Position numbers and translations under genes: made by a program
Notes under the pieces: generated by a model
What the model was told of the DNA's origin: nothing
Seen by the model: the letters and a program-made list of their open reading frames with translations, nothing else
Database searches by the model: none
DNA from: Ignavibacteria bacterium
GTDB lineage: Bacteria; Bacteroidota; Ignavibacteria; Ch128b
NCBI GenBank assembly: GCA_026415235.1
Contig: JAOAHM010000085.1
Span: 1 to 33,176, forward strand
Length of the DNA: 33,176 nt
Direction: 5' to 3'
Shown here: positions 1 to 31,360 of the stretch, piece after piece
Layout: every line of letters begins with the position of its first letter
How positions within the stretch are numbered: the first letter of the stretch is position 1

Positions 1-662
1 TCTGCTGCAACATGATAATCTTTGTCACCTACTTTGAAAGCGGAATTTCTCAGATATGTCCAGAGAATTGTAACCATTCCAAGTTCATGTGCGTATTGGA
101 ATGCTTGAGAAATCTCTTGAATTTGTCTTTTTGATTCAGCAGAGCCATAATAAATTGTTGCACCAATTGCTACAGCGCCAAGGTCGAATGCTTGTTTAAC
201 AGATGCAAATAGAATTTGATCGTAAGTGTTTGGATAACTTAGAAATTCATTATGATTAATTTTTAAGATGAATGGAATTTTATGAGCATATTTTCTTGCA
301 ACTGAACCGAGAACTCCAAGCGTCGAAGCAACAGCGTTGCATCCGCCTTCAATTGCAAGTTTTACTATGTTTTCTGGATCAAAGTAAATTGGATTTGGTG
401 CAAATGATGCTCCAGCTGAATGTTCAATTCCTTGATCAACTGGAAGAATTGATAAGTAACCTGTACCAGCAAGTCTACCAGTATTGAAAAGAAGTTGCAG
501 ATTTCTCAGAACCTGTGGATTTCTATCAGAAGGTACGAAAATTCTATCAACAAAATCAGGTCCTGGAAGGTGAAGCATATCCTTAGGAACAGTTTTGCAT
601 TCGTGTTTCAGTAGGTAGTCTGCTTCATTTCCCAGAAGTTTTACAATTTCATCTATTGTCAT
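1..662 (-). CDS. fbaB: Class I fructose-bisphosphate aldolase (FbaB/DhnA type), 3' part truncated by the window edge
   Basis: Reverse-strand translation from ATG at 660-662: [42 protein letters not shown]...[52 protein letters not shown]...[10 protein letters not shown]...; DQGIEHS and KINHN motifs of archaeal-type class I FBA; no stop before base 1. Confidence 0.88.
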
Positions 663-1097
663 TTTTATCTCTCCAATTTTAGTTGTGGTTTTCGACAAAT
701 ATAAGAAAAATCAGTAGTCGAATTTTTTGATGGTTGTTAATTAATTAGAACTTAAACTGGATTTGTTAAAAAATTGAAAGATTATCCGCATTTTTAATCT
801 AAAATATAAAATTGATAAGTAAATAACCGAACAAATCTTGGAAAATAAAAGGAATAAATTTCTCGCAAAGACGCTAAGACGCGAAGTTTATTTACAATTA
901 TAAAATTCAGATTGTTGTGATTATGTTTAAAAAATCTTAATTAACCAAAGCACCTTTTAGTTAAAATGAAACTTTTTAATTACAAATAATTAAAAGAGAA
1001 GAAACTTATGTGAACTTGAAATAATCAAAACTTATTTTTTTTTCGTTCTAAACTTAGTAAATTGTTTCGCTATAATGAAATAAATTGAAGGATATAG

Positions 1098-1916
1098 TTG
1101 AAGAGAGTACAATCATCTGACGATCAAAAACTTCAGGAAAAGTTAAAAGCCAAAGGCAATTTACCACGGCATATCGCCATTATTATGGATGGTAATGGTA
1201 GATGGGCAAAGAAACGAGGACTTCCTCGTGTTGCTGGTCATTCTGAAGGTGTAAAAAGCGTTCGAGATGTAGTAGAAGCCTGTGCTCAACTTGGTATTGA
1301 ATATTTAACTTTGTTTGCTTTCTCCACGGAGAATTGGAGACGACCTAAAGAGGAAGTTTCTACTTTAATGAAATTGCTTCTCAAAACTCTCAAAACAGAA
1401 ACAGATGAGCTTCATAAAAATAATATTCGTCTTCGAATGATTGGCGATTTTGAAACTCTTCCTGAAGAAGTTCAGAAACAACTTAGAGAAGCAATAAAGA
1501 AAACAGAAAACAACACAAGATTAAATTTGATTTTAGCTCTTAGCTATTCTGGTAGATGGGATATTCTTCAAGCAACAAAAAAAATTGCTGATGATGTAGC
1601 TCGCAAGAGAATCAAAACTTCGGAAATAAATGAAGAGTTATTTAAGCGTTATCTTTCCACTTCACAATTTCCTGAACCTGATTTGCTCATTCGCACCAGT
1701 GGGGAAATGCGAGTAAGTAATTTTCTTCTCTGGGAAATTGCCTACACTGAACTATATGTTACCGAAACACTCTGGCCAGATTTCAGAAGAAAAGAATTGT
1801 ATAAAGCTATTGAAGATTATCAGAAGAGAGAAAGAAAATTCGGTTTGGTAAGTGAGCAGATAAAGAAAATTAAAGGATATGGCAAAAATGTTTTTACCCT
1901 CAAGCAGTCTAAATAA
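1098..1916 (+). CDS. uppS: Isoprenyl transferase (undecaprenyl diphosphate synthase family)
   Basis: HIAIIMDGNGRWAKKRGLPRVAGHSEGVKSVRDVV and LLIRTSGEMRVSNFLLWEIAYTELY motifs; TTG start preceded by GAAGG. Confidence 0.95.
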   Translation: MKRVQSSDDQKLQEKLKAKGNLPRHIAIIMDGNGRWAKKRGLPRVAGHSEGVKSVRDVVEACAQLGIEYLTLFAFSTENWRRPKEEVSTLMKLLLKTLKTETDELHKNNIRLRMIGDFETLPEEVQKQLREAIKKTENNTRLNLILALSYSGRWDILQATKKIADDVARKRIKTSEINEELFKRYLSTSQFPEPDLLIRTSGEMRVSNFLLWEIAYTELYVTETLWPDFRRKELYKAIEDYQKRERKFGLVSEQIKKIKGYGKNVFTLKQSK

Positions 1917-6534: not shown

Positions 6535-7953
6535 ATGGTTGAAAAGCAGAGAACGATTGCTAAACCTGTTACTGTAAGTGGAATAGGGATTCATACTGGA
6601 ACTCAATGCACAATGACATTCAAACCAGCACCAGAAAATTATGGAATAAGATTTATTCGAGTTGATTTAGGAGGAAATCCTGAAATTCCTGCTATAGTCG
6701 AAAATGTTGTGGATGTTTCACGAGGAACCACCATTGCAGTAGGTGAAGCAAAAGTTCATACTGTTGAACATGTTTTAGCTGCTGTTTATGGATTAAAGAT
6801 AGATAATCTGAAAATTGAATTAGATGGAATTGAACCACCAATTGGTGATGGAAGTGCAAAACTATATGTTGATGCATTGCTCGAAGCAGAAATTGTTGAA
6901 CAAGAAGCTCCGAAAGATTATTTAGTAATTGATCAAACTGTAATGTATCACGATGAAGAAAGAGGAATTGATATTGTTGCTCTTCCGTTGGACGATTTCA
7001 GAATTACAATAATGATTGATTACAACAATCCAGCTCTTGGAAGTCAACACTCATCTTTATTTAGCCTTGAAAAAGAATTCATTACAGAATATTCAACTGC
7101 AAGAACATTTTGTTTCTTGAGTGAAGTAGAACAACTTGTAAATCAAAACTTAATCAAAGGTGGTGATATTGATAATGCAGTTGTTATTGTTGACAGAAAA
7201 CTTTCAGACGAAGAATTAAATAATCTTGCTCAAAAACTAAACATCAAACATCCACTTTTCCTTGGTGAGAATGGAATTTTGAACAACGAAACTTTGCGTT
7301 TCAAAAACGAACCTGCAAGACATAAAGTTTTAGATTTGATTGGTGACCTTGCACTGATTGGCGTTCCTTTGAAAGCTCAAATTCTTGCTGCTCGTCCAGG
7401 CCATAAAGCTAATGTTGAATTTGCTCGAATGATTAGAAAACTTTATCAGCAAAAGAAACTTGAGAAAAAATATCAGTTCATTAAAAAAGAAGGTGTTGTT
7501 TTTGATGCAAATGCAATCTTAAGAATTCTGCCTCATCGCTATCCTTTTGTTTTAGTTGATAAGATTGTTGATTTGAAGATGGGCGAAAAAGTTGTTGGAA
7601 TTAAAAATGTGACAATTAACGAACCATACTTTCAAGGACATTTTCCTGGTCAAATGGTTATGCCTGGAGTTTTAATAATCGAAGCACTTGCACAAACAAG
7701 TGGAATTCTTTTGCTTAATTCAATTCCTGATTTTGATAATAATCTCGTTTACTTTATGGCGATTAATAATGCAAAGTTCAGAAGACCTGTTGTTCCTGGT
7801 GATCAGTTAATACTTGAAGTAGAGCTTGTTAATCAAAGAAGCAAAACATTTACAATGAAAGGTCGTGCAATAGTTGATGGTAATCTTGCAGCTGAAGCAG
7901 AATTTATGGCTGCAATTGTTCCGAAGGAAGAAAGTCAAAAATCACAGAAATAA
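6535..7953 (+). CDS. lpxC/fabZ: Bifunctional LpxC (UDP-3-O-acyl-GlcNAc deacetylase) / FabZ (3-hydroxyacyl-ACP dehydratase)
   Basis: N-terminal half: SGIGIHTG, VHTVEHVLAAVYGL, ARTFCF, HKVLDLIGDLALIG (LpxC). C-terminal half: ILPHRYPFVLVDKI, YFQGHFPGQMVMPGVLIIEALAQ (FabZ). Single uninterrupted ORF. Confidence 0.95.
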   Translation: MVEKQRTIAKPVTVSGIGIHTGTQCTMTFKPAPENYGIRFIRVDLGGNPEIPAIVENVVDVSRGTTIAVGEAKVHTVEHVLAAVYGLKIDNLKIELDGIEPPIGDGSAKLYVDALLEAEIVEQEAPKDYLVIDQTVMYHDEERGIDIVALPLDDFRITIMIDYNNPALGSQHSSLFSLEKEFITEYSTARTFCFLSEVEQLVNQNLIKGGDIDNAVVIVDRKLSDEELNNLAQKLNIKHPLFLGENGILNNETLRFKNEPARHKVLDLIGDLALIGVPLKAQILAARPGHKANVEFARMIRKLYQQKKLEKKYQFIKKEGVVFDANAILRILPHRYPFVLVDKIVDLKMGEKVVGIKNVTINEPYFQGHFPGQMVMPGVLIIEALAQTSGILLLNSIPDFDNNLVYFMAINNAKFRRPVVPGDQLILEVELVNQRSKTFTMKGRAIVDGNLAAEAEFMAAIVPKEESQKSQK

Positions 7954-7961
7954 AAAATTGT

Positions 7962-8735
7962 ATGCCTGAAATTCATCCTACCTCAATCGTATCAAAAGAT
8001 GCTCAAATTGCAGACGATGTAATAATTGGTCCCTTCTGTATTGTAGAAGGAGATGTGAAAATTGAAAGTGGAACGAAATTATTGAGTCATGTTGTGATTT
8101 ACGATGGTGCAAGAATTGGAAAGAACAACAAAATTTTTCCCGGCACTGTGATAGCAGCTGTTCCACAAGATTTGAAATTCAACAACGAGTACACAGAAGT
8201 TTTTATTGGTGATAATAATACAATTCGAGAAGCTGTAACAATTAGTCGTGCAACTTCTGCAACAAAAAAAACAATTGTTGGAAGCAATTGTCTTTTAATG
8301 GCTTATGTTCATGTTGCTCATGATTGTGTTGTTGGAAATAATTGCATACTTGCAAATTCAGTTGAACTTGCTGGTCATGTTCATGTCGAAGATTATGTAA
8401 TAATTGGTGGACTTACAGGAGTTCATCAATTTACTTCCATTGGTCAACATTCTATGGTTGGTGCTTGTTCAAAAATTGTTAAAGACATTCCACCTTATAC
8501 TTTGTTTAGTGGAAATCCAATTAGATACGAAGGATTAAACATAATTGGACTTCGACGAAGAGGATTTTCATCCGATGCAATAGCCTCATTGAAAGAAGCT
8601 TACAACATTTTATATAGTCCGTATTACAACACAACTCAAGCAGTTGAAAAAATTAAATCTGATGTAAAACAAACAAACGAAGTAAAAGCATTGCTTGCTT
8701 TCATTGAAAAAAGTCGTCGTGGTATTAGCAAATGA
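7962..8735 (+). CDS. lpxA: Acyl-ACP--UDP-N-acetylglucosamine O-acyltransferase
   Basis: HPTSIVSKDAQIADDVIIGPFCIVEGDVKI, AHDCVVGNNCILANSVELAGHV, GLTGVHQFTSIGQHSMVG; C-terminal LpxA helical region. Confidence 0.95.
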   Translation: MPEIHPTSIVSKDAQIADDVIIGPFCIVEGDVKIESGTKLLSHVVIYDGARIGKNNKIFPGTVIAAVPQDLKFNNEYTEVFIGDNNTIREAVTISRATSATKKTIVGSNCLLMAYVHVAHDCVVGNNCILANSVELAGHVHVEDYVIIGGLTGVHQFTSIGQHSMVGACSKIVKDIPPYTLFSGNPIRYEGLNIIGLRRRGFSSDAIASLKEAYNILYSPYYNTTQAVEKIKSDVKQTNEVKALLAFIEKSRRGISK

Positions 8736-9478
8736 ACTTTTGGAAATTTCTTGATACAGGTGAGAACACAGGCAAATTCAATATGGATTTTGATTTGAGT
8801 TTGGTTGAAAGAGTAAATAGTGAAGGAGTTTCTTTTATTCGATTTTATCAATGGAAGCCTTATGCAATTTCGCTCGGATATCATCAAAAAATTGAAAGCA
8901 TAAATGTTGAGCTTTGCAAAGAACATTCAATTGATATCGTGCGAAGACCAACTGGTGGTAGAGCAATTTTACATTCTGATGAATTAACTTATTCGGTAGT
9001 TACTCCCATCAAAAATTTTTCACCACACGAGCTTTATTACAAAATTAATCTTGCTTTAATAGAAGGTTTACATAGTTATGACATCAGATTAAAAGATGTT
9101 GAACTCGAGAAAGCACAAATTGATTTTAAAAACTTCTACAAGTCATCGAAGTCAATTCCATGTTTTTCAAGTTCAGCAAGAAATGAAATAAAATTTCAAA
9201 ACAAAAAGCTTGTAGGTTCTGCTCAGAGAGTTATAAATGATGTGCTTCTTCAACATGGTTCAATTTTGATTGGTGAGTATCATAAGAAAATAGTTGAATT
9301 TTTGAATTTGAATGATGATGAAAAAGCAATGCTAAAAAATGAATTGGATGAAAAAACAATTTCACTAAAAGAAATATTAAATGAAGAAATTAATCTCAAT
9401 AATTTGAAAAACTCTCTCCTGAAAGGTTTTGAAAAAATTTTTGAAATAAGTTTGATTGAAAGTGAGGTAACAATATGA
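8732..9478 (+). CDS. Lipoate--protein ligase / octanoyltransferase (LplA/LipM-like)
   Basis: [54 protein letters not shown] motifs of the LplA/LipB/LipM fold; ATGA overlap with lpxA. Confidence 0.85.
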
Positions 9479-10290
9479 GTACAACAACTGAGATTAAGAA
9501 AGTTACAACTCGTAGAATTCAAGAGATGAAAGATCGAGGAGAGAAAATCACCGCACTTACTGCATACGATTTTTTAATTGCAAGATTGTGTGATAGAGCA
9601 GGAATTGATATTATTCTTGTAGGCGATTCTGTTGGCAATGTTTTTCAAGGACATCTTACCACTTTACCTGTAACTCTTGAGGATATGATTTATCACACTA
9701 AAGCTGTTCAGCGTGGTGTAAAGCGAGCAATGATTGTTGTTGATATGCCCTTTATGAGTTATCAAACAAATGTTGAAGAAGCATTTCGTAATGCTGGCAG
9801 AATTATGAAAGAAACAGATGCAGGTGCAGTAAAAATAGAAGGTGGTGAAATATTTGCTGAAACTGTTGCTAAACTTACCGCTAATGGAATTCCAGTGATG
9901 GGACACATTGGATTAACTCCACAATCAATTCATCGTTTTGGTGGATATCAACCGAGAGGAAAAGAAAAAGAAGAAGCTCAACAATTAATTCGAGATGCAA
10001 AAGCACTTGAAGAAGCAGGTGCATTTGCAATTGTTATTGAAAAAGTACCAGCTAAACTCGCAAAACGAATAACTCAATCAGTAAAAATTCCAACAATTGG
10101 TATCGGTGCAGGAAAATATGTAGATGGACAAATTCTTGTTGTTTATGATATGCTTGGATTAACAGAAGAATTCAACCCACGATTTGTTAGAAAATATGCC
10201 CATCTATCAGAAACAATTTTCGATGCTTTCAAACATTACATCGAAGATGTTCGCAGTGGCGACTTCCCAAATGAAAAAGAAAGCTATTGA
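9475..10290 (+). CDS. panB: 3-methyl-2-oxobutanoate hydroxymethyltransferase
   Basis: [54 protein letters not shown] and [19 protein letters not shown] are hallmark PanB sequences. Confidence 0.97.
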
Positions 10291-10532
10291 TTAATTGATT
10301 TAATTCTTCTCATCAACACACTCACTCTTTCAATTTTCATAAAATATTTATTACACAATTTTTTATTATTCTTCTTTCCAGAAACTCATTCAACTTTTTT
10401 TGAATTAATTTGTGAAAAAATTTTTTGTTGAGAAGTCCATTGAAAAATTTTTTTGATTTCATCAGAGAAAATTTTTTCAATCACTTTGATTAAAAAAAAT
10501 TTTTTTGATGATAAAGTTGTTTAAGAAGATGT

Positions 10533-10578
10533 ATCACATCATTCAAAAAACTTTATGTTGAATGAATGATGATGTGAT
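10533..10578. repeat. Inverted repeat ATCACATCAT/ATGATGTGAT (10-bp perfect arms, 26-nt spacer) upstream of the ATP-grasp operon
   Basis: Arms at 10533-10542 and 10569-10578 read directly from the sequence. Confidence 0.55.
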
Positions 10579-10625
10579 GTTGTTAAAAAGTGTGATGAAA
10601 AAATTTAAAAGTTGTTGAAAAACTA

Positions 10626-10653
10626 TTGACAAAAAATTTTTAAATAATATATT
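10626..10653 (+). promoter_or_regulatory. Candidate sigma-70-like promoter of the ATP-grasp/KamA operon
   Basis: TTGACA (10626-10631), 16-nt spacer, TATATT (10648-10653), about 50 nt upstream of the first ORF. Confidence 0.45.
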
Positions 10654-10700
10654 AGCAATAGAATCAAAAAAATATGTTGAACAAATTGAGAGAGTGATTT

Positions 10701-11783
10701 ATTAGTACTAATACTTCTTCTGATAAAAGATTGAATGTTGTTCTTACCTACAACATAAAACAAGAAAGTTTTAACACACCATCGGCTAAGTATCCTTTTC
10801 TCAAAAAATTCAATTACTCAGCTAACATTAGTGAAGATACATTTGCAGAGTGGGATACAGAAGAAACAATTAATGCAGTTCGTGATGCACTTTCAATTTA
10901 TCACGATGTAACTTTAGTTGAAGCAGATAACGATGCATTCGAAACATTTCGTGAATTGAATCCAGATATTGTTTTCAACATCGCTGAAGGTTTTAATGGC
11001 ATTAGTCGTGAAGCACAAATTCCAGCAATGTTAGAGTTTTTGAACATTCCTTACACAGGTTCTGATCCAGTTACACTCGGAATTTGTCTTGATAAATCTC
11101 GAACAAAAGAAATTTTATCTTACTATAAAATTCCTACTCCACAATTTCTTCTCGTTGAAAGAGGAGATGATTACTCGACAATTGACTTTCCGCTTCCAGC
11201 AATTGTTAAACCAGTTGCAGAAGGTTCAAGCAAAGGAATTTATAATTCTTCTGTAGTGAGAACAAAAGATGAGTTGATAAGAGAGATTAAGAAAATTCAC
11301 GAAATTTATAATCAAGCAGCTTTAATTGAGAAATTTCTTGAAGGAAGAGAATTTACCGTTGCAATACTGGGAAATGGAAAAGATGCTCGTTGTCTTCCAA
11401 TTATCGAAATGAAATTTGAAGAATTACCTGAAGGAATTCTACCAATTTATTCATACGAAGCAAAATGGATATTTGATACACGAGAAGAACCACTTGATAT
11501 TTATGAATGTCCAGCAAACATAGACGAAAATCTAAAAGCAAAAATTGAAAAAGTCGCCCTCGATACTTACCGAGTTTTGAAATGTCGTGATTGGTCAAGA
11601 ATTGATATTCGACTGGATGAAAATGGAATTCCAAATGTATTAGAAATAAATCCTTTGCCTGGTATTTTACCAAATCCAAATGATAATTCTTGTTATCCAA
11701 AAGCAGCTCGTGCAGCAGGTATGACTTACGAAGAAATGATTAATGCTGTATTGAATGAAGCAAGAAAAAGGTATGGCATATGA
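10701..11783 (+). CDS. D-alanine--D-alanine ligase-like ATP-grasp protein (1)
   Basis: PDIVFNIAEGFNGISREAQIPAMLEFLNIPYTGSDPVTLGICLDKSRTKEIL, IVKPVAEGSSKGI, RIDIRLDENGIPNVLEINPLPG; Ddl-type ATP-grasp. ORF track starts at TTG 10731; an upstream in-frame ATT at 10701 with GAGAG about 8 nt ahead fits better. Confidence 0.85.
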   Translation: MSTNTSSDKRLNVVLTYNIKQESFNTPSAKYPFLKKFNYSANISEDTFAEWDTEETINAVRDALSIYHDVTLVEADNDAFETFRELNPDIVFNIAEGFNGISREAQIPAMLEFLNIPYTGSDPVTLGICLDKSRTKEILSYYKIPTPQFLLVERGDDYSTIDFPLPAIVKPVAEGSSKGIYNSSVVRTKDELIREIKKIHEIYNQAALIEKFLEGREFTVAILGNGKDARCLPIIEMKFEELPEGILPIYSYEAKWIFDTREEPLDIYECPANIDENLKAKIEKVALDTYRVLKCRDWSRIDIRLDENGIPNVLEINPLPGILPNPNDNSCYPKAARAAGMTYEEMINAVLNEARKRYGI

Positions 11784-12826
11784 AAGAAAACATTAAAGTC
11801 TTACTTGCTTACAATCAACCTGTTGGTGGAATTTATGAAAGTTACGATGGGAAGCGAAAAAAATCGGAAGCTTCAAATGTTATAGACCTTTCCGAAGTAG
11901 GTGTGATTGAAGAATACGAAGAGATTAAAGAAACTCTTACTGCAAAAGGAATAGAAACAGAAACCTTTAATTTACTCGATAACATTCAAGAACTTTGTTC
12001 GAAATTAGCTTCGAAAGAATACGATGTAGTTTTCAATCTTGTTGAAAGCGTTGGTGGAGAATCGGTAAAGGAAATGTATGTTGCAGGAATTTATGAATTG
12101 TTTAATGTACCTTACACTGGATGTAGTGCAGTTACACTTGGATTGTGTTTGAACAAACATCGAGCAAAGTTGTTTATGAAAGGTGCAGGTTTTAATGTTC
12201 CAAATTGGCGCTTATACGAAACACCAAATAAAATTTCTTTTGATTTGAAGCCAGAGTTCCCGTTGATTGTTAAACCATCTCGTGAAGATGCAAGCGTTGG
12301 AATTAGTGAACAATCAGTTGTTTTCAATGAACAAGAATTAAAAGAACAAGTCGAATATCTCTTCACAACATTGAAACAACCAATTTTAGTTGAAGAATAT
12401 ATAGATGGAAGAGAAATTAACTCAGCAATTTTAGGTGATAAAGAAAAAATTGCTCTTCCACTTTCCGAAATTAGTTTCGATACTTTACCTGATGATTTAC
12501 CAAAAATTGTAACTTATGAAGGAAAGTGGATTAAAGAGAGTTTGTATTATCAAAATACAATCCCAGTTTGTCCTGCACCTTTGGAAGAAAAACTATCTAA
12601 TCAATTAAAACAAATTGCACTTGAAGTTTCAAATCTTTTTGGTTGTCGAGATTATTGCAGAGTTGATTTAAGATTGGATAAAGAAAATCGTCCTTATGTT
12701 CTTGAAGTAAATCCCAATCCAGATATATCAATTGATGCAGGTTTTGCAAGAGCAGCAAAAGCTTATGGATTATCTTACGACGAGTTGTTAATCAAAATAA
12801 TTGAATTCGCATTAGAAAGAAGATGA
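11780..12826 (+). CDS. D-alanine--D-alanine ligase-like ATP-grasp protein (2)
   Basis: YDVVFNLVESVGGESVKEMYVAGIYELFNVPYTGCSAVTLGLCLNKHRAKLF, PLIVKPSREDASVGI, CRVDLRLDKENRPYVLEVNPNPDI; ATGA overlap with the preceding gene. Confidence 0.85.
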   Translation: MKENIKVLLAYNQPVGGIYESYDGKRKKSEASNVIDLSEVGVIEEYEEIKETLTAKGIETETFNLLDNIQELCSKLASKEYDVVFNLVESVGGESVKEMYVAGIYELFNVPYTGCSAVTLGLCLNKHRAKLFMKGAGFNVPNWRLYETPNKISFDLKPEFPLIVKPSREDASVGISEQSVVFNEQELKEQVEYLFTTLKQPILVEEYIDGREINSAILGDKEKIALPLSEISFDTLPDDLPKIVTYEGKWIKESLYYQNTIPVCPAPLEEKLSNQLKQIALEVSNLFGCRDYCRVDLRLDKENRPYVLEVNPNPDISIDAGFARAAKAYGLSYDELLIKIIEFALERR

Positions 12827-13308
12827 TAATTAGAGAAATGAAAAAAGAAGATAGAGAACAGTTAAAAGAAATTTTGTTCAATACTCAAAATTTTTCAATT
12901 GAAGAGAAAGAAGTAGGATTGGAGCTCATTGATATTGCTCTGAATAATCCGAACCAAAAAGATTATTATTTCAAAGTTGCCGAAGAGAACGAAAGAGTTT
13001 TAGGTTATTATTGCATTGGTCATCGTGCTTTGACAGATGGAGTTTTTGATTTGTATTGGATTGTTGTCTCACCAGATGCAAGAGGATTGGGAATTGGAAC
13101 AAAATTGATTGAAGACGCAGAAGAATTTGTTAAATCAAAAAATGGAAGATTAATTCTTGCTGAAACTTCATCACGTGATGATTATGCAAGCACAAGAGAG
13201 TTTTATAAAAAAAATAATTATAAAGAAGTAGCTATCATCAAAGATTTCTATCGTGTTGGTGATAGCTTAATAATCTTCGGCAAATACATAAACAACCAAG
13301 GAGAGTAA
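12823..13308 (+). CDS. GNAT family N-acetyltransferase
   Basis: DLYWIVVSPDARGLGIGTKLIEDAEEFVKSKNGRLILAETSSRDDYASTREFYKKNNYKEVAII: GNAT motif A (RGLGIG) and C-terminal FYKKNNY; ATGA overlap with the upstream gene. Confidence 0.9.
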   Translation: MIIREMKKEDREQLKEILFNTQNFSIEEKEVGLELIDIALNNPNQKDYYFKVAEENERVLGYYCIGHRALTDGVFDLYWIVVSPDARGLGIGTKLIEDAEEFVKSKNGRLILAETSSRDDYASTREFYKKNNYKEVAIIKDFYRVGDSLIIFGKYINNQGE

Positions 13309-13310
13309 CT

Positions 13311-14444
13311 ATGGAACTCTGGCAAAAAATGATCAGAGATAGCATTCATTCAGTCGATCAACTCGTCGAAAAATTTAAACTCGATAGACGAGTGGCTGAA
13401 AGGCTGGACAAATTTTTCCAGGCTCGCATTAATCCATATTACTTAAGCTTAATTCGTTACCCTGGTGACCCAATCTGGCTTCAATGTGTACCTGATGAAA
13501 CAGAATTAAGCGACATTGATGCTCCCGAAGATCCACTTGGCGAAGACTCGATGAGTCCCGTTCCAAACATTACTCATCGTTATCCCGATCGTGTCTTGTT
13601 CTTAACAACAAGTCAGTGCGGAATGTATTGTAGATTTTGTACAAGAAAAAGAAAAGTTGGTGACTCGTCTAAAATTTCAATGCGAGGACTCGAAGCAGCA
13701 TTTAAGTACATTGAAGAACACACTGAAATTAGAGATGTAATTCTTTCTGGCGGTGATCCATTGATGTTAACAGATACAATGCTCGAAAAAATTCTTCAAA
13801 GATTAAGACAAATTCCTCATGTTGAAATTATCAGACTTGGTACAAGAATGCCCGTTGTTTTACCACATCGAATTACTCCAAAACTTGTTCGAATGCTCAA
13901 AAAATATCATCCGATTTATGTGAACACTCATTTCAATCATCCTTGGGAAATTACTCCTGAAAGTAAACGAGCTTGTGAACTTTTAGCTGATGCTGGTATT
14001 CCAATTGGTAATCAAACAGTTCTGATGAAGGGTGTGAACGATGACCCTGAAATTATCAAAGAACTATTCAGAAAATTATTGCTAATGCGAGTTCGACCAT
14101 ATTATCTCTATCAAGCCGATTTGACAAAAGGTGCAAATCATTTCAGAACTCCTGTGAAAGTTGGTCTTGAAATAATGGATAAGTTAAGAGGACATACTTC
14201 TGGACTTGCTGTTCCTTACTATGTAATTGATGCACCAGGTGGTGGAGGTAAAATTCCATTGCTTCCACAATACATCTTATATCAAGATGATGAAAAGTTA
14301 ATCTTAAGAAATTACAAATACGAAACTTTTGTCTATCCAGATGTCAAACCAGAAGAATATCGAAGTGGAATTCCAATTCAAACTGATAACTATGAAAGCA
14401 CAACAACTATATCGTTGCCTGTAATTCAAAATCAAAATGAATAA
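13311..14444 (+). CDS. KamA-family radical SAM protein (lysine 2,3-aminomutase-like)
   Basis: CGMYCRFCTRKRKVG (CxxxCxxC), VILSGGDPLMLTD, RLGTRMPVVLPHRIT, THFNHPWEIT, LMKGVNDDPEIIKELFRKLLLMRVRPYYLYQADLTKGANHFRTPV, DAPGGGGKIPLLPQY. Confidence 0.92.
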   Translation: MELWQKMIRDSIHSVDQLVEKFKLDRRVAERLDKFFQARINPYYLSLIRYPGDPIWLQCVPDETELSDIDAPEDPLGEDSMSPVPNITHRYPDRVLFLTTSQCGMYCRFCTRKRKVGDSSKISMRGLEAAFKYIEEHTEIRDVILSGGDPLMLTDTMLEKILQRLRQIPHVEIIRLGTRMPVVLPHRITPKLVRMLKKYHPIYVNTHFNHPWEITPESKRACELLADAGIPIGNQTVLMKGVNDDPEIIKELFRKLLLMRVRPYYLYQADLTKGANHFRTPVKVGLEIMDKLRGHTSGLAVPYYVIDAPGGGGKIPLLPQYILYQDDEKLILRNYKYETFVYPDVKPEEYRSGIPIQTDNYESTTTISLPVIQNQNE

Positions 14445-14532
14445 TCATTTTAATTTTGATGAAGACCGATTGATTTTAATGTAATTGTTCCAATTTATTA
14501 AAGTTACTTTGTTTGAGTTTAATCAATTCGAT

Positions 14533-14561
14533 ATTATTTCTTTTCTTAAAAGCGAAATAAT
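14533..14561. repeat. Imperfect AT-rich hairpin ATTATTTC-TTTT...AAAA-GC-GAAATAAT downstream of the KamA operon
   Basis: Arms 14533-14544 and 14548-14561 pair with a 2-nt bulge; only a weak T-run follows, so a terminator role is unproven. Confidence 0.3.
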
Positions 14562-14841
14562 TATTCTTCTTGATTTAGCAAAAATTCGAGCATCGTTACT
14601 TGAAGCTTAGCCAGTTGAAAATACTAATTTTAAATTAAGTTTTATATTACTTCCTTTCGCTTTTTATCTGAGATTAGGTTGATTAAAAATTTTTTTGTTC
14701 TCTCATTAACTAATGAAATCAATTCAAAACAAAAGTTATTGTAATCATTCCGCTTTTAATTTTCAGAGAGATTAAAATATAAAATGAGAATGTTTTTATA
14801 ATTTTTTTCTTTTCTTATCTTTTAATAAAAATTTTATTACC

Positions 14842-23279: not shown

Positions 23280-25172
23280 ATGATTAATTTTAGAGATAAA
23301 AATCTAATTCCCATTTGGGAAAAAGTTCAGCGTGGTGAAGAATTATCATTTGAAGATGGAATTACTCTATATAAATCTTCGGACATCATCTCAATTGGTA
23401 AAATGGCGCATTGGCTTCAGCGAGAAAAAAATGGTGATGCCGTTTACTTTGTAGTAAATCAAAAAATTGAACCGACAAACATTTGTGTACTTTCGTGTAA
23501 GTTCTGCGATTTTGCCGTTAAGAAAAATTCTCCTGAAGCTTATGAAATGACAATTGAAGAAATTTTATCGAAACTTCATCCTGAACTTCTTGAGGTTCAC
23601 ATCACTGGTGGATTGCATCCTGATTGGGAATGGGAATATTATGTCGGAATGGTTCGAGAGATTAAAAAACATTTTCCCAAAATTGATGTTAAGGCATTCA
23701 CTGCAGTTGAAATAGATTTCTTTTCAAAAAAATTCAAAAAATCAATTGAAGAAGTTTTGCTTGAATTAAAAGAAGCTGGACTTAGAACATTGCCTGGTGG
23801 TGGTGCAGAAGTTTTTTCTGAGAGAGTTAGGAGACTTCTTTTCAATCAAAAGATTGGCGCAAAACGATGGCTCGAAATTCATAAGAAAGCTCACGAACTT
23901 GGAATTCGTTCAAATGCGACTTTACTTTATGGTCACATCGAAACAATTGAAGAAAGAGTTAATCACTTCTTGTTGTTAAGAAATTTACAAAAGGAAACAG
24001 GTGGATTTCTTTCGTTCATTCCTCTTGCTTTTCAACCTGGTGATACAGGAATTAAACCAAGAAATCAATTTACTTCTGCGATTGATGATTTGAAGACAAT
24101 TGCCATTTCACGATTGATGCTTCATAATTTTGATCACATTAAAGCTTATTGGATTATGCTTACTGAAGAGCTTGCTGCAGTGGCTTTAAATTTCGGCGCT
24201 GATGATATGGATGGAACTGTAGGTGGTGAAAGAATTGCTCACGATGCTGGTGCAATTACTCCAATGCAACTGGCAAAAAATAAATTGATTAAAATTATTA
24301 ATGATGCGAACAAAATTCCTGTTGAAAGAGATATCTTTTATAAACCAGTTAGACTTCATTCTAATAATGTTATAGGAAGAGTTTCATATTTGAATACACT
24401 TCCTTTCTTCAAATATCTCGATAATCGTGAATACAAAATTTTTCCTGCTACACCACGACAACTTGGAATGCTTTTCAAAGATGGAAATATTGATGCAGGA
24501 ATTGTTTCGCTTGTTGATTTCTTTGAGAAAGAAAATGATTTTACTTATTTGAAATATGGAATAGTTGGAAATAAAAATGTTAAAAGTGTTCTACTTTACT
24601 CTAAATTTCCAATTGAACAGTTGGATAAAAAAAGTATTGCTGTGACGGATGAAACTTCAACATCGTTTAGATTGCTTCAGGTTTTGCTTGAGTTGAAATA
24701 TGGACTTGATGTAGTTTATGTGCGTGAGAAAATTTCTGCACGAGAAAAAACACTTCCGAATTTCGATGCATTTCTAACAATTGGCGATGAGGCTTTAAAA
24801 TTTTTGAAAAATAAACTTGATGGATTTAATTACATTTACGATTTAGCTCAACTATGGTATGATTGGAAAAATCTTCCTTTTGTTTTTGCTGTCTGGGCAG
24901 TGAAAAAAGATTTACCTCAAACTAAAATTGATGCTCTTGATAAACTTTTGAACGATGCATTAAACAAATTCTTTTCTTCTACAACAGAGATTGAAGAATA
25001 TTACAATGTAAAAATTGGTTTCACCCAAAAAGAAATTCAGGACTATCTGAATAACATAGTTTACAGATTGGGTGAAAAGGAAATTCAATCAATTAGTTTA
25101 TTCAAAGAATATTATCAAACTTTACTGCTGAAGCATTCTGAGGAAGAAAAAAAAGTTAAGTTATCCCATTAA
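23280..25172 (+). CDS. mqnE-mqnA: Fused aminofutalosine synthase (MqnE, radical SAM) - chorismate dehydratase (MqnA)
   Basis: N-terminal: TNICVLSCKFCDFAVKK, HITGGLHPDWEWEYYVGMVREIKKHFP, GGGAEVFSERVRRLL, HIETIEERVNHFLLLRNLQKETGGFLSFIPLAFQP, HNFDHIKAYWIM. C-terminal from about residue 360: VIGRVSYLNTLPFFKYL, ATPRQLGMLFKDGNIDAGIVSLVDFFE, SVLLYSK, MqnA-like. No internal stop. Confidence 0.9.
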   Translation: MINFRDKNLIPIWEKVQRGEELSFEDGITLYKSSDIISIGKMAHWLQREKNGDAVYFVVNQKIEPTNICVLSCKFCDFAVKKNSPEAYEMTIEEILSKLHPELLEVHITGGLHPDWEWEYYVGMVREIKKHFPKIDVKAFTAVEIDFFSKKFKKSIEEVLLELKEAGLRTLPGGGAEVFSERVRRLLFNQKIGAKRWLEIHKKAHELGIRSNATLLYGHIETIEERVNHFLLLRNLQKETGGFLSFIPLAFQPGDTGIKPRNQFTSAIDDLKTIAISRLMLHNFDHIKAYWIMLTEELAAVALNFGADDMDGTVGGERIAHDAGAITPMQLAKNKLIKIINDANKIPVERDIFYKPVRLHSNNVIGRVSYLNTLPFFKYLDNREYKIFPATPRQLGMLFKDGNIDAGIVSLVDFFEKENDFTYLKYGIVGNKNVKSVLLYSKFPIEQLDKKSIAVTDETSTSFRLLQVLLELKYGLDVVYVREKISAREKTLPNFDAFLTIGDEALKFLKNKLDGFNYIYDLAQLWYDWKNLPFVFAVWAVKKDLPQTKIDALDKLLNDALNKFFSSTTEIEEYYNVKIGFTQKEIQDYLNNIVYRLGEKEIQSISLFKEYYQTLLLKHSEEEKKVKLSH

Positions 25173-25479: not shown

Positions 25480-26580
25480 ATGCTTACGAAAGATATACTA
25501 AAAAAAGTTATTGATGGCGAAAGAATATCTAATGAAGAATGTTTACAACTTCTCCAATACAATGATATACTCGAACTTGGTGAAGTTGCAAATGAAATTC
25601 GCTTCAGAAAAAATCCTGAAAACTATGTAACATTTGTTGTAGATACAAATCCAAACTACACAAATGTTTGTGAAATTGATTGTACCTTCTGTGCATTCTA
25701 TCGTCATAAAGATGAGCCCGATGCTTACACTTATTCGGTAGACGAGTTAATCAAAAAATTTAAAGACGCAGCTAAGAGAGGCGTTACTACTGTTCTTCTT
25801 CAAGGTGGTGTTAATCCAGATTTACCTTTTGAATATTATCTCGAACTTGTTGAAAGAACAAGAAAAGAAGTTCCAGAAATTCATCCTCACTTCTTCTCTA
25901 CTTCAGAGATTATTGGAATGAGTGAGGTGAGTGGACTTTCAATTAGAGAAGTTCTTATAAAATTAAAAGAAGCTGGTCTCAATACAATTCCAGGTGGTGG
26001 TGCAGAAATTTTAAGTGACCGTGTTAAAAGAAAAATAAGTAAGAAGAAAGGAACAAGTGCAGACTATCTAAATGTAATGCGTGAAGCTCATTTGCTTGGA
26101 TACAAAACAACCGCAACAATGATGTTTGGTCACATTGAAAGCGATGAAGATATTGTAATTCATCTCGAAAGTATTAGAAAACTTCAAGATGAAACTGGAG
26201 GATTTACTGCATTCATTCCATGGAGCTTCAAACCCGAAAACACTCCACTCGAAAAACACATCAAATCATTTGCTTCGCCATATCGCTATTTGCAAATCAT
26301 AGCAATCTCAAGAATTTATCTTGATAACTTCCCTCACATTCAAGCATCGTGGTTTAGTGAAGGTAAAAAGATTGGACAAGTTGCATTACACTTTGGTGCA
26401 GATGATTTTGGTGGAACACTTGAAGAAGAAAATGTTCATGCTGCAGCAAATTTCATAAACAAAAGCTCAACAGAAGAAGTAATTGATTTAATTCATGGTG
26501 CTGGTTTCGATGCTGCACAAAGAGATACGCTGTATAATATTTTGAAAGTGTATGCCCAAAATGCAATCAAGATTTTATGA
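25480..26580 (+). CDS. mqnC: Cyclic dehypoxanthinyl futalosine synthase (MqnC, radical SAM)
   Basis: TNVCEIDCTFCAFYRHKDEPDAYTYSVDELIKK, LLQGGVNPDLPFEYYLELVERTRKEVPEIHPHFFS, GGGAEILSDRVKRKIS, HIESDEDIVIHLESIRKLQDETGGFTAFIPWSFKPENTPLE. Confidence 0.95.
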   Translation: MLTKDILKKVIDGERISNEECLQLLQYNDILELGEVANEIRFRKNPENYVTFVVDTNPNYTNVCEIDCTFCAFYRHKDEPDAYTYSVDELIKKFKDAAKRGVTTVLLQGGVNPDLPFEYYLELVERTRKEVPEIHPHFFSTSEIIGMSEVSGLSIREVLIKLKEAGLNTIPGGGAEILSDRVKRKISKKKGTSADYLNVMREAHLLGYKTTATMMFGHIESDEDIVIHLESIRKLQDETGGFTAFIPWSFKPENTPLEKHIKSFASPYRYLQIIAISRIYLDNFPHIQASWFSEGKKIGQVALHFGADDFGGTLEEENVHAAANFINKSSTEEVIDLIHGAGFDAAQRDTLYNILKVYAQNAIKIL

Positions 26581-27613
26581 ACATTAGTAATTCAGATAAA
26601 TCTTTAATTCCTTTAGATTCATAATTAACCTTAGAAAGATAATCTTCTATTAAGCTTATTTCTAAATCTTTTTTCTCCTGTATTACATAAAGGGAAAAAA
26701 TGATAGCAGAAAATATAACATTAAATAAATCTGGTTGAAATGATTGATCTGGGTGAATTGATTTGTTTCTATAATTATTTAATTTGAAACCAAATCTAAC
26801 TAATTCAAGAGGGCTTTCAGCAATAATTATAGATAAAGAATTATTTTCTTGCCATACAAATTCTTTACTAGTTAAAATTAATTTTTCAGCTTGATATTTA
26901 TTTTTTTCAAAATCTCTTTTCAATTCCTCATCGCTTTTTGAATTTCTTAAAAAAGAAATTAAACAACTATGATAAAGATGTATAATTAATCTATAATAAA
27001 TATAACTTGATGTAATGTTTTTAAGGTTAAGCATTAAATTCAATATTATATTAATATTATCTAATATTTCCCATTGAATTTCAAAAGGTAATTTACTATT
27101 TGAAATTTTGCGTTTGATTTTCTTATTAAACTTAAATATATCAAATAGATAATATTCTTTTTCTAGTTCTTCCAAGATTTTTCTTATACCTATATCGAAC
27201 CAGTCCTGTAGTCCAGCGTCTTTTCTACTTTTGTCAAATGTATAAACTACCAATCCTTTTTTAACTAGTTCTTGATGTTCTTCTGATAAGTCTAAGGCCT
27301 TAAACTGTCCTGAATAAGTACATATTTTAGAAATGGGGCAAATTGAAAAAGCTTTTTTAATGATTTCAAAACCAGAATCTCTTCTGCCTCCTTTATGTGA
27401 TTGTTGCGTAAAATCAATATCAATAAATAGAATATGATAAAAATCGTTCTTTTCATTGGCCTCCGATAATTTACTAATAGCTTTTTCTGGAAATTCACAT
27501 TCAATTATATCAAATTCATATTCTGAATTTTCTTTTAACTTATAAAGTTCTTCTATCAAAATATCTCTTGCTTCGATGGTATCTTCTGCTATCAATACTT
27601 TAAATTTTTTCAT
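26567..27613 (-). CDS. Response regulator (REC) with C-terminal all-helical HEPN-like domain (candidate RNase)
   Basis: REC: KVLIAEDTIEARDILIEEL (acidic pair), ILFIDIDFT (phosphoacceptor Asp), KICTYSGQ, VYTFDKSRKD (Lys). C-terminal helical region with LNNYRNKSIHPDQSFQPDLF, matching the HEPN catalytic pattern R(N/D/H)x3H (R282-H287). No recognisable DNA-binding output domain. Confidence 0.72.
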   Translation of the reverse strand: MKKFKVLIAEDTIEARDILIEELYKLKENSEYEFDIIECEFPEKAISKLSEANEKNDFYHILFIDIDFTQQSHKGGRRDSGFEIIKKAFSICPISKICTYSGQFKALDLSEEHQELVKKGLVVYTFDKSRKDAGLQDWFDIGIRKILEELEKEYYLFDIFKFNKKIKRKISNSKLPFEIQWEILDNINIILNLMLNLKNITSSYIYYRLIIHLYHSCLISFLRNSKSDEELKRDFEKNKYQAEKLILTSKEFVWQENNSLSIIIAESPLELVRFGFKLNNYRNKSIHPDQSFQPDLFNVIFSAIIFSLYVIQEKKDLEISLIEDYLSKVNYESKGIKDLSELLMFIKS

Positions 27614-28526
27614 ACTTAATTAATTTTGGTACTTGTAATTTTATTATAGTTTGAGATTTATCACTATCAATTTCGAATTTACTCTCAATATGTAAGTTAT
27701 GACACCATTTTTTTACCAATCTTAATCCAACTTTAGATGATTTAGACATAGGTATTTCTTCTGTCAGATTTTCTTGATTTGAATTAAACCAATCAGTCTC
27801 GGTTTTAGAAATTATACGATTATTATAAATTGCTACTTTAATAAACATTTCATATTCTATAATTTCTATATGAATTTTGGGATCTTCTTCGTCAGTGTAT
27901 TGAAAAGCGTTTCTCAATAAATCTTTGCATATTAGTTCTAATGCTGTTTCAAGATTATCGTCAATTTCTATTTCACATATACCTTTTGTAAAAATGGGAA
28001 TATTTAGGTTTAGAAGTTTATTTTTATGCTCTCTAATAGATAATCTTAATGAATCTATACCTTCTTTAATTGTATAAATTTGTGCTTCTATTAAATTTTT
28101 TAGATTTACTTTATGTATTTCTTTGGCTTTTGGTAATCTTTCTTTATTCAAATCCCACATAATTAGATTGGTAATGTCTCTAATTCTTGTAATATTATGC
28201 TTAGCTTTTTTTATCAAATGAAAGTATTCAACGGTTTGAGGGATACTATTCAGATATGAGAGAGCTGCAAATACATCGGTATTAATTGAATGCGACATTT
28301 CATCAACAATCTTTTTCCAAGTATTTAATTGTGAATTTAGTTCTTTCTCCCTTAGAAGTGAATTGAGAGTTTTCTTTTGAAATTTAATTCTTTCTTTAAT
28401 TAATTCGTTGAATGTTTTTTCCCTATGTAATTCTTTTTCTTTTATTTCAGAAATTTCCTTTCTTAAATTTTCATTTTCATTTTTTAAGTTTTCAATTAAA
28501 TTCAATAACTCTTTAATTTCATCCAT
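27600..28526 (-). CDS. Soluble sensor histidine kinase (coiled-coil N-terminus, DHp-like, HATPase_c)
   Basis: Long N-terminal coiled coil; candidate H-box DEMSHSINTDVFAALSYL; N-box LICKDLLRNAFQYTDEEDPKIHIEI; G-box SSKVGLRLVKKWCHNLHIESKFE. No transmembrane segment. Start overlaps the REC-HEPN gene's start by 14 nt. Confidence 0.75.
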   Translation of the reverse strand: MDEIKELLNLIENLKNENENLRKEISEIKEKELHREKTFNELIKERIKFQKKTLNSLLREKELNSQLNTWKKIVDEMSHSINTDVFAALSYLNSIPQTVEYFHLIKKAKHNITRIRDITNLIMWDLNKERLPKAKEIHKVNLKNLIEAQIYTIKEGIDSLRLSIREHKNKLLNLNIPIFTKGICEIEIDDNLETALELICKDLLRNAFQYTDEEDPKIHIEIIEYEMFIKVAIYNNRIISKTETDWFNSNQENLTEEIPMSKSSKVGLRLVKKWCHNLHIESKFEIDSDKSQTIIKLQVPKLIKYEKI

Positions 28527-28543
28527 TTTAATTAAGTGTTTTT

Positions 28544-29740
28544 TTACTTACGAATTTTCTCTAAAAAATTTTCATATTTTTTCTCAAGTGTATAACTGAA
28601 TAAATTACCTGGGTTTTTAAAAACATTAAATATTGGAGAAAATTCATTTATTAAATTCAGATAGACTTGATAATCAATCATTGTTTTTTCTTCATAGAAC
28701 GAAATTTTTGTATTTTCTTTTAACCAGCTTAAAACTTCTATTTCTTTTGTTTTTTGTTCTTCAGTTAATATTGCCTTTAAATACTTTAGTAACTCGTTAC
28801 ACTTTCCTAAATCCATAAGAAATGGTTCATAGATTTCATCTGATAATGAACCACTAGTATGACCAATATAAATATATGGACGAGTTTGTACATATTCAGA
28901 AGCTTCTTTTAACGGAAATTCTTTTCCTGTAAAAATTACAGCATAAATTCCAGCATCATAATATAATTTTAATGCTTCATCCCAGGGAGTTAGGTTTTCT
29001 CTAAAATATTTCTTTAAGAACTCAATATCATCGGTTAAACTTATATAATTGTTTTCATCTATATGGAATCGCTCAGAATTTTCAATTAAAGCATTCTTTA
29101 TTAGTGATAAATCATCAATTTCTAAACCAAAATGTAATTTTAATAATAAGGGAATATTATCTAAATGCAGTTTATTACTATTTCTTACTAAACTTGCAAT
29201 ATGTTTAGCAATTATGTATGACTTATAATCTTCCTTATATAAGCAAAAATGAAGTTCGTTAGATTTTCTTACTTTATCAATTATAAAATGATTTTCTGTA
29301 ACTAAAATACGGAAAACTTTGTTAAGGAAATCTATGTCACAAAGTTCTAACATCCTGGGTTCTTTACTAAAGAATAAATTTTTAAATTGTTTTTGGATAA
29401 AATCTAAAGTTTTATCACTATAAGAGAACACATATACTTTTCTAGTAAGAAATACACAATTGAATATATCTACAATTGCTTTTTTAAATACATCTTGGCT
29501 GATTAGATAACTTTCTTTAATGTGTTCTAAATTAATTTTTGAATATGTTGGTTTCCTAATAATTTCATAAAAATTTAGTAATTCTATACCATAATCTTGA
29601 TAATCAAATTGTATAGGTAACTCTTCTTTTTCAAAAAAGAGATGACTTATTTTTTTTAACTTAACGGGTTTTCCTTCCTTATCAAGATAATTTTTAACAT
29701 CATTAATTTTTTGTTTTAAATTTAATTCTGATACAACCAT
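28544..29740 (-). CDS. Protein of unknown function in the CARF/HK/REC-HEPN cassette (398 aa)
   Basis: Long ORF, same strand, 17 nt upstream of the HK gene; low-complexity-free, well-mixed sequence. Possible winged-helix-like segments (e.g. LIKNALIENSERFHIDENNYISLTDDIEFLKKYF). No confident family assignment. Confidence 0.65.
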   Translation of the reverse strand: MVVSELNLKQKINDVKNYLDKEGKPVKLKKISHLFFEKEELPIQFDYQDYGIELLNFYEIIRKPTYSKINLEHIKESYLISQDVFKKAIVDIFNCVFLTRKVYVFSYSDKTLDFIQKQFKNLFFSKEPRMLELCDIDFLNKVFRILVTENHFIIDKVRKSNELHFCLYKEDYKSYIIAKHIASLVRNSNKLHLDNIPLLLKLHFGLEIDDLSLIKNALIENSERFHIDENNYISLTDDIEFLKKYFRENLTPWDEALKLYYDAGIYAVIFTGKEFPLKEASEYVQTRPYIYIGHTSGSLSDEIYEPFLMDLGKCNELLKYLKAILTEEQKTKEIEVLSWLKENTKISFYEEKTMIDYQVYLNLINEFSPIFNVFKNPGNLFSYTLEKKYENFLEKIRK

Positions 29741-29826
29741 ATTTGAAATTCCTTTTATTATCTTCTTTCATTCAAAATTAACGAACTTTCTAAAGAATTT
29801 ATTTACTGAAATATTTCCGCAACTTT

Positions 29827-30810
29827 TCAATTTTCGATTTTTATCTTTTCTAAATCCAATAAAATTCCATAAAACATTGCACCTTTCTTGCCGTGACTAA
29901 CTATTTGATAATACCTTGAGATTTTGTCGTCATTAAGTAGAATTTTAATTTTTTTATTTAATCTTGAAATATTTGCTCTGAATGTAGTAGTTGATAAAGG
30001 CTGCTTATTATATATAATTTTTTTTAATACTAATCTGTGCAATTCAAGATCGGGAAAACTTTCTTCATGATATATATATATTTCATTGATTATTTCAAGC
30101 GGGACAAATAATCCTGACATTTTTACTTCACTAATACCTTGTAGTTTTTTTTCTACAAAGAATCTGTAATAGGAGAACTCAATTGGAGAAAATGGAACTT
30201 CATATTGTCCAATGTAAACTCTGCCTTTCTTAATCTGCAATATTAGTTCTGGTAATAATGATTTTTTAATATTGTTTAATTCATTTTCTAACCTTATTAT
30301 TTTTGGCAAAGTTGTGTTTAATTTAACTTCTTTAATATCACCACCATACTTTGGGTTACGAATATATATTAGTTTAAGTGGAAATTCTTTTGAAAAGTCA
30401 CCTGACTCACTCAATAGTATCCAACAAACTTGCATCGCTGGAGTGCCTGATGAAATTGAAGCGGTATATTCAATAAATTCATTTTTCGGTAAAGTATCAC
30501 AAAAAGTTTTGAGCTTTTCATATATTTCATTATGGTCTACAACATCGTTAATATTAAGTTCGAATAGTAATACTTTATTTGAAAGTTTCCTTTTTTTAAT
30601 TTCTTTAATTAAGTATAAGCCTATTCCTTTAAAATCAATCTCTGAACTTGAATTGTATAATAGAATAATCTCATCATATTTCATTTGTTTAAGTATTGTT
30701 AAGATAGCCCCATCTTCTTGACCCATCAATTTTCCAGCGTCATTTGTTCCAATAAAGGATAGCAAAATTTTTTTTATTTTTTTCATAAATTCATTGGAGT
30801 TTTTAATCAT
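29827..30810 (-). CDS. CARF-domain protein (RtcR-like sensor) with probable C-terminal winged-helix domain
   Basis: LLSFIGTNDAGKL...AILTILKQMKYDEIILLYNSSSE (beta-strand 1 region) and YTASISSGTPAMQVCWILL (the S/T-x-GT-x-x-M/Q-x-x-W motif of CARF/RtcR N-termini), KLIYIRNPKYGG. C-terminal EVPFSPIEFSYYRFFVEKKLQG...TTTFRANISRLNKKIKILL resembles an OmpR/PhoB-type wHTH. Alternative ATG at 30786. Confidence 0.72.
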   Translation of the reverse strand: MIKNSNEFMKKIKKILLSFIGTNDAGKLMGQEDGAILTILKQMKYDEIILLYNSSSEIDFKGIGLYLIKEIKKRKLSNKVLLFELNINDVVDHNEIYEKLKTFCDTLPKNEFIEYTASISSGTPAMQVCWILLSESGDFSKEFPLKLIYIRNPKYGGDIKEVKLNTTLPKIIRLENELNNIKKSLLPELILQIKKGRVYIGQYEVPFSPIEFSYYRFFVEKKLQGISEVKMSGLFVPLEIINEIYIYHEESFPDLELHRLVLKKIIYNKQPLSTTTFRANISRLNKKIKILLNDDKISRYYQIVSHGKKGAMFYGILLDLEKIKIEN

Positions 30811-30859: not shown

Positions 30860-31360
30860 ATGAAACGATTTGAACAATTATATTATCTTTCGTGGGATCA
30901 TCGCTCTGCTTTGATGGAAGCTTTTAACGTCTCAAAGTATGTTGATGAATTCGATAATCTTCAAACTCTTGAGAAAAGAAATTCTATCATTAATTTTTAT
31001 GAAAAAGATTTGCTTCTTCATTTCAGAGCTGAAGAAGAAATTCTTTTACCAAGAATGACTTTAAATTCTGAAGTGAACATCGAATTAATCAGAAAGACTC
31101 TTGATGATCATATACTCATCCATAGTTTAATTATTTTATTAAAAAAGGAAACCAACGATTTTCAGAAATTGAAATCTATCCTAAAAGAATTTGCAACGAA
31201 CTTAACAGCACACATCAGATTTGAAGAACGAGAGCTTTTTGAACATGCTCAATCTATTTTGAACAATAATGATTTTAACGAAATACAAAAAGAAATCACC
31301 GAACGATATGGAGATAAATATCTCTCACCTTCCTGCGATTTACCAGAAGAACTTGCATAG
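30860..31360 (+). CDS. Hemerythrin-like (HHE cation-binding) domain protein
   Basis: WDHRSALM, LLLHFRAEEEILLPRM, LDDHILIHSLI, LTAHIRFEERELFEHA: spaced H/E ligands typical of the HHE family. Confidence 0.88.
   Translation: MKRFEQLYYLSWDHRSALMEAFNVSKYVDEFDNLQTLEKRNSIINFYEKDLLLHFRAEEEILLPRMTLNSEVNIELIRKTLDDHILIHSLIILLKKETNDFQKLKSILKEFATNLTAHIRFEERELFEHAQSILNNNDFNEIQKEITERYGDKYLSPSCDLPEELA

Follow-up and report, generated by a model that had tools for sequence, protein, structure and literature searches.

Control of HEPN-bearing defence operons (CoCoNuT superoperons) by CARF/RtcR proteins is known (PMC11090510), the ligands of RtcR itself are tRNA 5' halves with a terminal 2',3'-cyclic phosphate (PMC7790460), and RtcR-like CARF proteins have been noted near restriction-modification (R-M) systems (PMC4012209). 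In this study, we describe a cassette of four minus-strand genes in a 33,176-nucleotide stretch of DNA from an Ignavibacteria bacterium (JAOAHM010000085.1; hereafter the window), listed as contig C17 in a draft genome of 2.14 Mb with a completeness of 89%. The four genes encode a CARF protein, a protein that we call X, a soluble histidine kinase (HK) and a protein in which a receiver (REC) domain is joined to a HEPN-like helical domain (REC-HEPN). We propose that they form a horizontally acquired, CARF-regulated stress or defence unit with two layers of control, most likely an abortive-infection system against phage, and we judge the chances for and against this proposal to be evenly balanced.

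The cassette resembles the RtcR_PspF and CoCoNuT operons in that an RtcR-type CARF protein presumably controls the transcription of an operon with HEPN RNase or R-M genes, and sigma-54 promoters are present in the cassette loci with an RtcR-type protein. However, the cassette has no McrBC/CoCoNuT GTPase, its effector stands behind an HK and a REC domain, and the CARF domain in the window is joined to a CARF5-type C-terminus, not to an AAA-helix-turn-helix (AAA-HTH) part. In Detocs, the response regulator is fused to a cell-killing effector. Detocs has been summarised as an anti-phage system made of the kinase DtcA, the phosphate buffer DtcB and the response regulator DtcC (PMC11728103); the cassette shares with it a histidine kinase and a response regulator in a putative anti-phage role, but it has no second REC "buffer" protein (X is not REC-like), and it has a HEPN-type effector together with an added CARF regulator and X. 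The Csm6/Csx1 nucleases of type III CRISPR likewise combine CARF with a HEPN-type RNase motif in one system, and a distant REC-HEPN protein lies beside cas6 and cas10, whereas the cassette has CARF and HEPN on separate proteins, has HEPN fused to REC, and occurs in genomes half of which gave no Cas10 match. REC domains are also found in defence proteins of Type I-B CoCoNuT, for which phosphorylation was merely suggested (PMC11090510), and in Cam2, where there is no histidine kinase partner (PMC11229360); in contrast, the kinase of the cassette is adjacent to the REC protein and coevolves with it. A survey of HEPN proteins makes no mention of histidine kinases, and refers to receiver domains only as a replacement of HEPN in a membrane-protein family (PMC3710099), and a 2026 machine-learning survey lists HATPase and REC domains among those of systems that are predicted but not validated, and mentions HEPN dimers (PMC13092281). 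PADLOC returned no match for X, HK or REC-HEPN, although the presence of Detocs models in that version was not verified. Each of the building blocks is known, and the arrangement of CARF, X, HK and REC-HEPN was not found described in the open-licence literature (subscription papers lay outside the search), in agreement with the first-pass annotation of this DNA, which had put the layout forward as a candidate undescribed system.

The association of the four genes is kept well beyond the window. The HK gene lies directly upstream of REC-HEPN in every homologue examined, X precedes HK wherever the contig extends far enough, and a CARF gene adjoins X in all six loci with an assembled upstream end. 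Three of these six loci have the CARF type of the window (46-53% identity), while in the other three a divergently transcribed RtcR-type CARF-AAA-HTH protein adjoins X; the two RtcR-type proteins tested matched PADLOC RtcR_PspF2 at 4e-153 and 2e-160, and the third was assigned from its position, size and BLAST similarity. The order is preserved in other genera at 33-40% REC-HEPN identity, so that the co-occurrence beyond this strain, which the first-pass annotation had named as one point on which its reading could fail, was borne out. One genome (L019, G446:C31, positions 6914-14670) even carries two diverged tandem X-HK-REC-HEPN sets behind a single CARF gene. Distances between HK proteins and between REC-HEPN proteins are closely correlated (r=0.92, 9 loci), which points to coevolution of the two proteins, while the distances of X, the fastest-evolving of them, correlate less than those of this pair.

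The HK has a predicted coiled-coil N-terminus, an H-box at H79 (AHSINTD type), an N-box at N206 and a G-box at G267. These three residues are invariant in 9 HK homologues, and HATPase_c matches 6 of the 9 members (best 1.2e-7), both of which bear out the earlier histidine kinase call. REC-HEPN consists of a receiver domain (residues 1-130) and an all-helical domain (150-348). Its AlphaFold model (pLDDT 88.7) and the Foldseek matches of the REC half, to the REC domain of ComE (TM 0.81, normalised by target) and to PorX, confirmed the receiver fold that had been called from the letters, and the switch residues are conserved: all 11 homologues share D11, D65, D67, T99 and K128, with an acidic residue (E or D) at position 10. 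The phosphoacceptor had been placed at D66; residue 66 is, however, an isoleucine, and the likely acceptor is D65.

In the helical domain, the RNKSIH motif corresponds to R282-N283-xxx-H287. Only five positions of this domain are invariant over 12 sequences, namely a Y, an L and the R, N and H of RNxxxH, and the motif is a conserved R-x4-6-H with a polar residue after R, as in HEPN-type motifs. No HEPN protein was among the 50 matches listed in the fold search with REC-HEPN. We infer from the motif and the helical prediction that the domain is a HEPN RNase.

Protein X is predicted to have a helical/winged-helix-like body and a C-terminal degenerate GIY-YIG-like domain (about 262-390). Pfam GIY_YIG_2 matches 7 of 8 X homologues at E<=0.05 (best 3e-5), and the window copy itself gave no match above the cut-off; the AlphaFold model is confident in the C-terminal half only, and winged-helix proteins made up most of the best Foldseek matches, of which none was significant. 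An active GIY-YIG nuclease was considered and rejected, since X does not have the catalytic Tyr/Tyr/Arg/Glu/Asn set; the GIY and YIG tyrosines vary among the homologues. With the lowest conservation in the cassette (19-24%) and a fixed position ahead of HK, X is a candidate sensor feeding the kinase, and a better one for this input than the CARF protein. In another locus (L074, G424:C98, positions 7777-11019), a close homologue of the window's CARF regulator is followed by a GIY-YIG-like segment fused to a HATPase and then by a short protein that is REC-like and ends in SDHGVHP, an order that mirrors X-HK-REC-HEPN and is a hint that X feeds the kinase.

These features suggest how the second layer of control might work. 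The fast-evolving X, which resembles nucleic-acid-binding proteins, would detect the threat and control the soluble HK; the HK would autophosphorylate on H79 and transfer the phosphate group to the REC residue D65, as the invariant residues strongly suggest; phosphorylation would then promote REC dimerisation, by which two RNxxxH motifs could be brought together and the HEPN RNase switched on; and the RNase would putatively cut cellular or phage RNA and halt growth. The opposite sign of control, in which REC-HEPN would be active by default, as in a toxin-antitoxin pair, and held off by HK phosphorylation or binding until infection or X relieves the block, would suit the overlap of the HK and REC-HEPN genes, the strong coevolution of their products and the patchy distribution, and the sign of REC control is not readable from sequence; but the REC switch residues are fully conserved, and HEPN RNases are usually activated by dimerisation, which REC phosphorylation typically promotes, so we regard default activity as unlikely.

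In three cassette-free relatives (G467, G468 and G469; two genomes of the window's genus and one of its family), mqnC is directly adjacent to the hemerythrin gene, while in the window exactly the four cassette genes stand between the MqnC-like and hemerythrin genes; the four genes are an accessory, portable unit. The G+C content of the cassette is 24.9%, against 30-33% in the flanks, and no target duplication is obvious at its ends. Homologues are patchily distributed: they occur in 9 of the 81 genomes from a related family, in 1 of the 6 from the window's order and in 4 of the 399 that sample the phylum, and the named carriers of the system are Ignavibacteria/Chlorobiota metagenome assemblies. 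Horizontal acquisition appears to be the best explanation of the cassette's presence. REC-HEPN had no match in plasmids or viral contigs, HK none in phages and CARF none in viral contigs, and one plasmid gave an RtcR-like half match only. Elsewhere in the class, the profiles hit other families only through short generic REC matches, and a degenerate-peptide scan of GTDB contigs with protein X alone found no relatives.

The link to defence made in the first-pass annotation gained support from the neighbours of CARF homologues, since close homologues stand at the head of YhcG/DUF1016 nuclease genes, of Type I R-M operons and of an operon with an OLD-like ATPase, all of these without HK or REC. 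On a short contig (L022, G399:C185, positions 1-3129), cas6 and cas10 are directly preceded by a distant HK and REC-HEPN pair; the REC-HEPN homologue in it is full-length (hhalign E 3e-24) and keeps R-N-xxx-H, and the pair may serve a type III CRISPR locus as an ancillary effector linked to a phosphorelay. Within the CRISPR comparison, only this distant homologue adjoins cas genes. Cas10 as an obligate partner was rejected, as any Cas10 match was found in only 5 of 10 system-bearing genomes, with none in G000, G377 (a 100% complete draft), G306 (a single contig), G408 and G447. A further locus (L081, G406:C198, positions 8828-13518) encodes an RtcR_PspF2-like regulator, a HATPase-like protein and a 505-amino-acid protein with a REC-like N-terminus and an RNWTAH motif, which is an analogous CARF / kinase-like / REC-HEPN-like order with weak profile similarity; beyond one weak match to REC, in L081, profile comparison did not support L074 or L081 as true HK/REC-HEPN homologues, and both were treated as analogous. 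More broadly, we propose that sensor X, HK and REC-HEPN represent a hitherto undescribed class of defence module whose HEPN RNase is gated by a phosphorelay, exchangeable behind different CARF transcription factors and with divergent versions ancillary to type III CRISPR, a tentative proposal whose chance we put slightly below even.

The CARF domain (about 13-160) matches Pfam RtcR PF06956 at 1e-7, above the cut-off, and in PADLOC the protein matches RtcR_PspF2 (1.8e-18) and Csx1/Csm6 (3.8e-12), which upholds the CARF domain of the first-pass annotation; what had gone unmentioned there is the C-terminal domain (178-326), which is common to PADLOC CARF5 proteins (CARF5 2.4e-9) and may be a winged-helix DNA-binding domain. 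The AAA+ sigma-54 domain and HTH are present in the homologous loci L017 and L018 and absent from the CARF protein of the window, which is therefore not a true RtcR. Sequence searches against solved structures gave nothing useful for CARF, X or the HEPN region. In seven loci (L007, L008, L019, L074, L075, L076 and L077), a GTTGCNGCAAC-RTTGCNG-like sequence sits 4-9 nucleotides past the CARF stop codon and reads as a palindrome or an 11-bp direct repeat. The site in the window has 4 mismatches to CCGCAACGTTGCGG (p<0.001, 1000 shuffles), and those at the same place in other loci have 0-3, the weakest being L077 with 5 (p=0.026); L053, L078 and L080 have no such motif directly after CARF. All five genome-wide pattern matches in G306 (single contig), G266, G424 and G446 adjoin CARF genes, and further matches occur in G298, G134, G444, G408 and G447. 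In L078 (G298:C1, positions 7351-7365), a Type I R-M operon headed by CARF has the operator-like motif between its YhcG/DUF1016 and hsdR genes. Upstream of X in the three RtcR-type loci there is a -24/-12 element, TGGCACG-N4-TTG, at 12, 11 and 11 of 12 positions (p<0.001). That two unrelated types of CARF regulator each have a fitting DNA element argues for an action of CARF on transcription. One type of CARF partner can stand in for the other, such proteins also head other defence operons, and each type comes with promoter or operator elements that fit it. The CARF protein therefore most likely regulates the transcription of the cassette instead of feeding the phosphorelay, and these observations failed to support the earlier suggestion that CARF is wired to the HEPN effector through HK.

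In the first layer of control, as motifs and synteny suggest, the CARF protein would bind a signal of infection or RNA damage, by analogy with RtcR putatively RNA ends with 2',3'-cyclic phosphate, with a cyclic nucleotide also possible, and would control transcription of X-HK-REC-HEPN through the site just past its own stop codon. The cyclic-phosphate ends left by the RNase could in turn feed back on CARF.

Several observations weigh against reading the cassette as a CARF-regulated, phosphorelay-gated defence unit. The cassette family turned up in only a few genomes of one class, and its immediate neighbours in the window are metabolic genes, not defence genes. In the HATPase G1 box of HK, NN replaces DxGxG, and the activity of the kinase is uncertain because of this divergence; X matches GIY-YIG only in part and does not conserve the active site; and the winged-helix reading of the CARF C-terminus stays putative because Pfam gave no HTH match there. 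The window's genome has no exact match to the operator consensus, its own site being degenerate with one good half-site. Lastly, the helical domain matched no HEPN family profile, and "HEPN" is for this reason used in the sense of motif and fold class; the first-pass HEPN call is borne out by the RNxxxH motif only, in a domain predicted to be all-helical. Defence function, HEPN fold and RNase activity are put forward as proposed attributes of the system. The metabolic neighbours, the missing HEPN profile match and a CARF domain closest to RtcR, a regulator of RNA repair, would also fit a two-component system for envelope, redox or RNA-repair stress outside defence, with the helical domain as a catalytically dead output or binding domain; however, RNxxxH supplies three of the five invariant helical-domain positions over 12 sequences, the cassette is an accessory insertion with patchy spread and no rtc genes, and CARF homologues and the distant HK/REC-HEPN pair are found with R-M, YhcG and type III CRISPR genes, and we consider a role outside defence unlikely. 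That CARF might instead sense the signal for the phosphorelay directly, touching X or HK in its ligand-bound state to gate REC-HEPN and not acting chiefly as a transcription factor, is improbable, for although CARF always adjoins X in assembled loci and CARF domains often gate nucleases directly, its type is exchangeable (RtcR-type sigma-54 activators in three loci), unrelated defence operons that lack HK and REC are also headed by its homologues, promoter or operator elements match the two CARF types, and G446 has two X-HK-REC-HEPN copies behind one CARF.

The coordinates of the cassette, its flanks and the operator-like site are collected in the table below. The four open reading frames and their spacing agree with the first-pass annotation: 86 nucleotides separate CARF from X and 17 separate X from HK, while HK and REC-HEPN overlap by 14 nucleotides. 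The MqnC-like gene is convergent with REC-HEPN and overlaps its 3' end by 14 nucleotides. Adjoining the MqnC-like gene, a 630-amino-acid open reading frame (window positions 23280-25172) seems by eye to join an MqnE-type radical SAM enzyme to an MqnA-like domain, of the futalosine menaquinone pathway.

Table. Features of the cassette and its flanks in the window
Feature	Position	Strand	Remarks
Putative CARF sensor/transcription regulator gene	29827-30810	minus	327 aa
Protein X gene	28544-29740	minus	398 aa; candidate sensor of the kinase
Soluble histidine kinase (HK) gene	27600-28526	minus	308 aa
Putative REC-HEPN effector gene	26567-27613	minus	348 aa
Degenerate operator-like site	29814-29830	minus	TTGAAAAGTTGCGGAAA directly after the CARF stop codon; one good TTGCGG half-site
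Left flank: MqnC-like radical SAM gene	25480-26580	plus	outside the system
Right flank: hemerythrin HHE-domain gene	30860-31360	plus	Pfam Hemerythrin 1.1e-11; outside the system

The exchangeable CARF regulator and its recognisable operator may provide a DNA signature for locating further defence operons, because every match in four genomes adjoined a CARF gene and the downstream genes included known restriction systems. The usual gates of HEPN RNases in defence are nucleotide ligands, guide RNA, antitoxins and AMPylation. Should the proposal be true, a HEPN RNase would here be gated by a reversible phosphorelay, which would join two-component signalling to RNA-degrading immunity.

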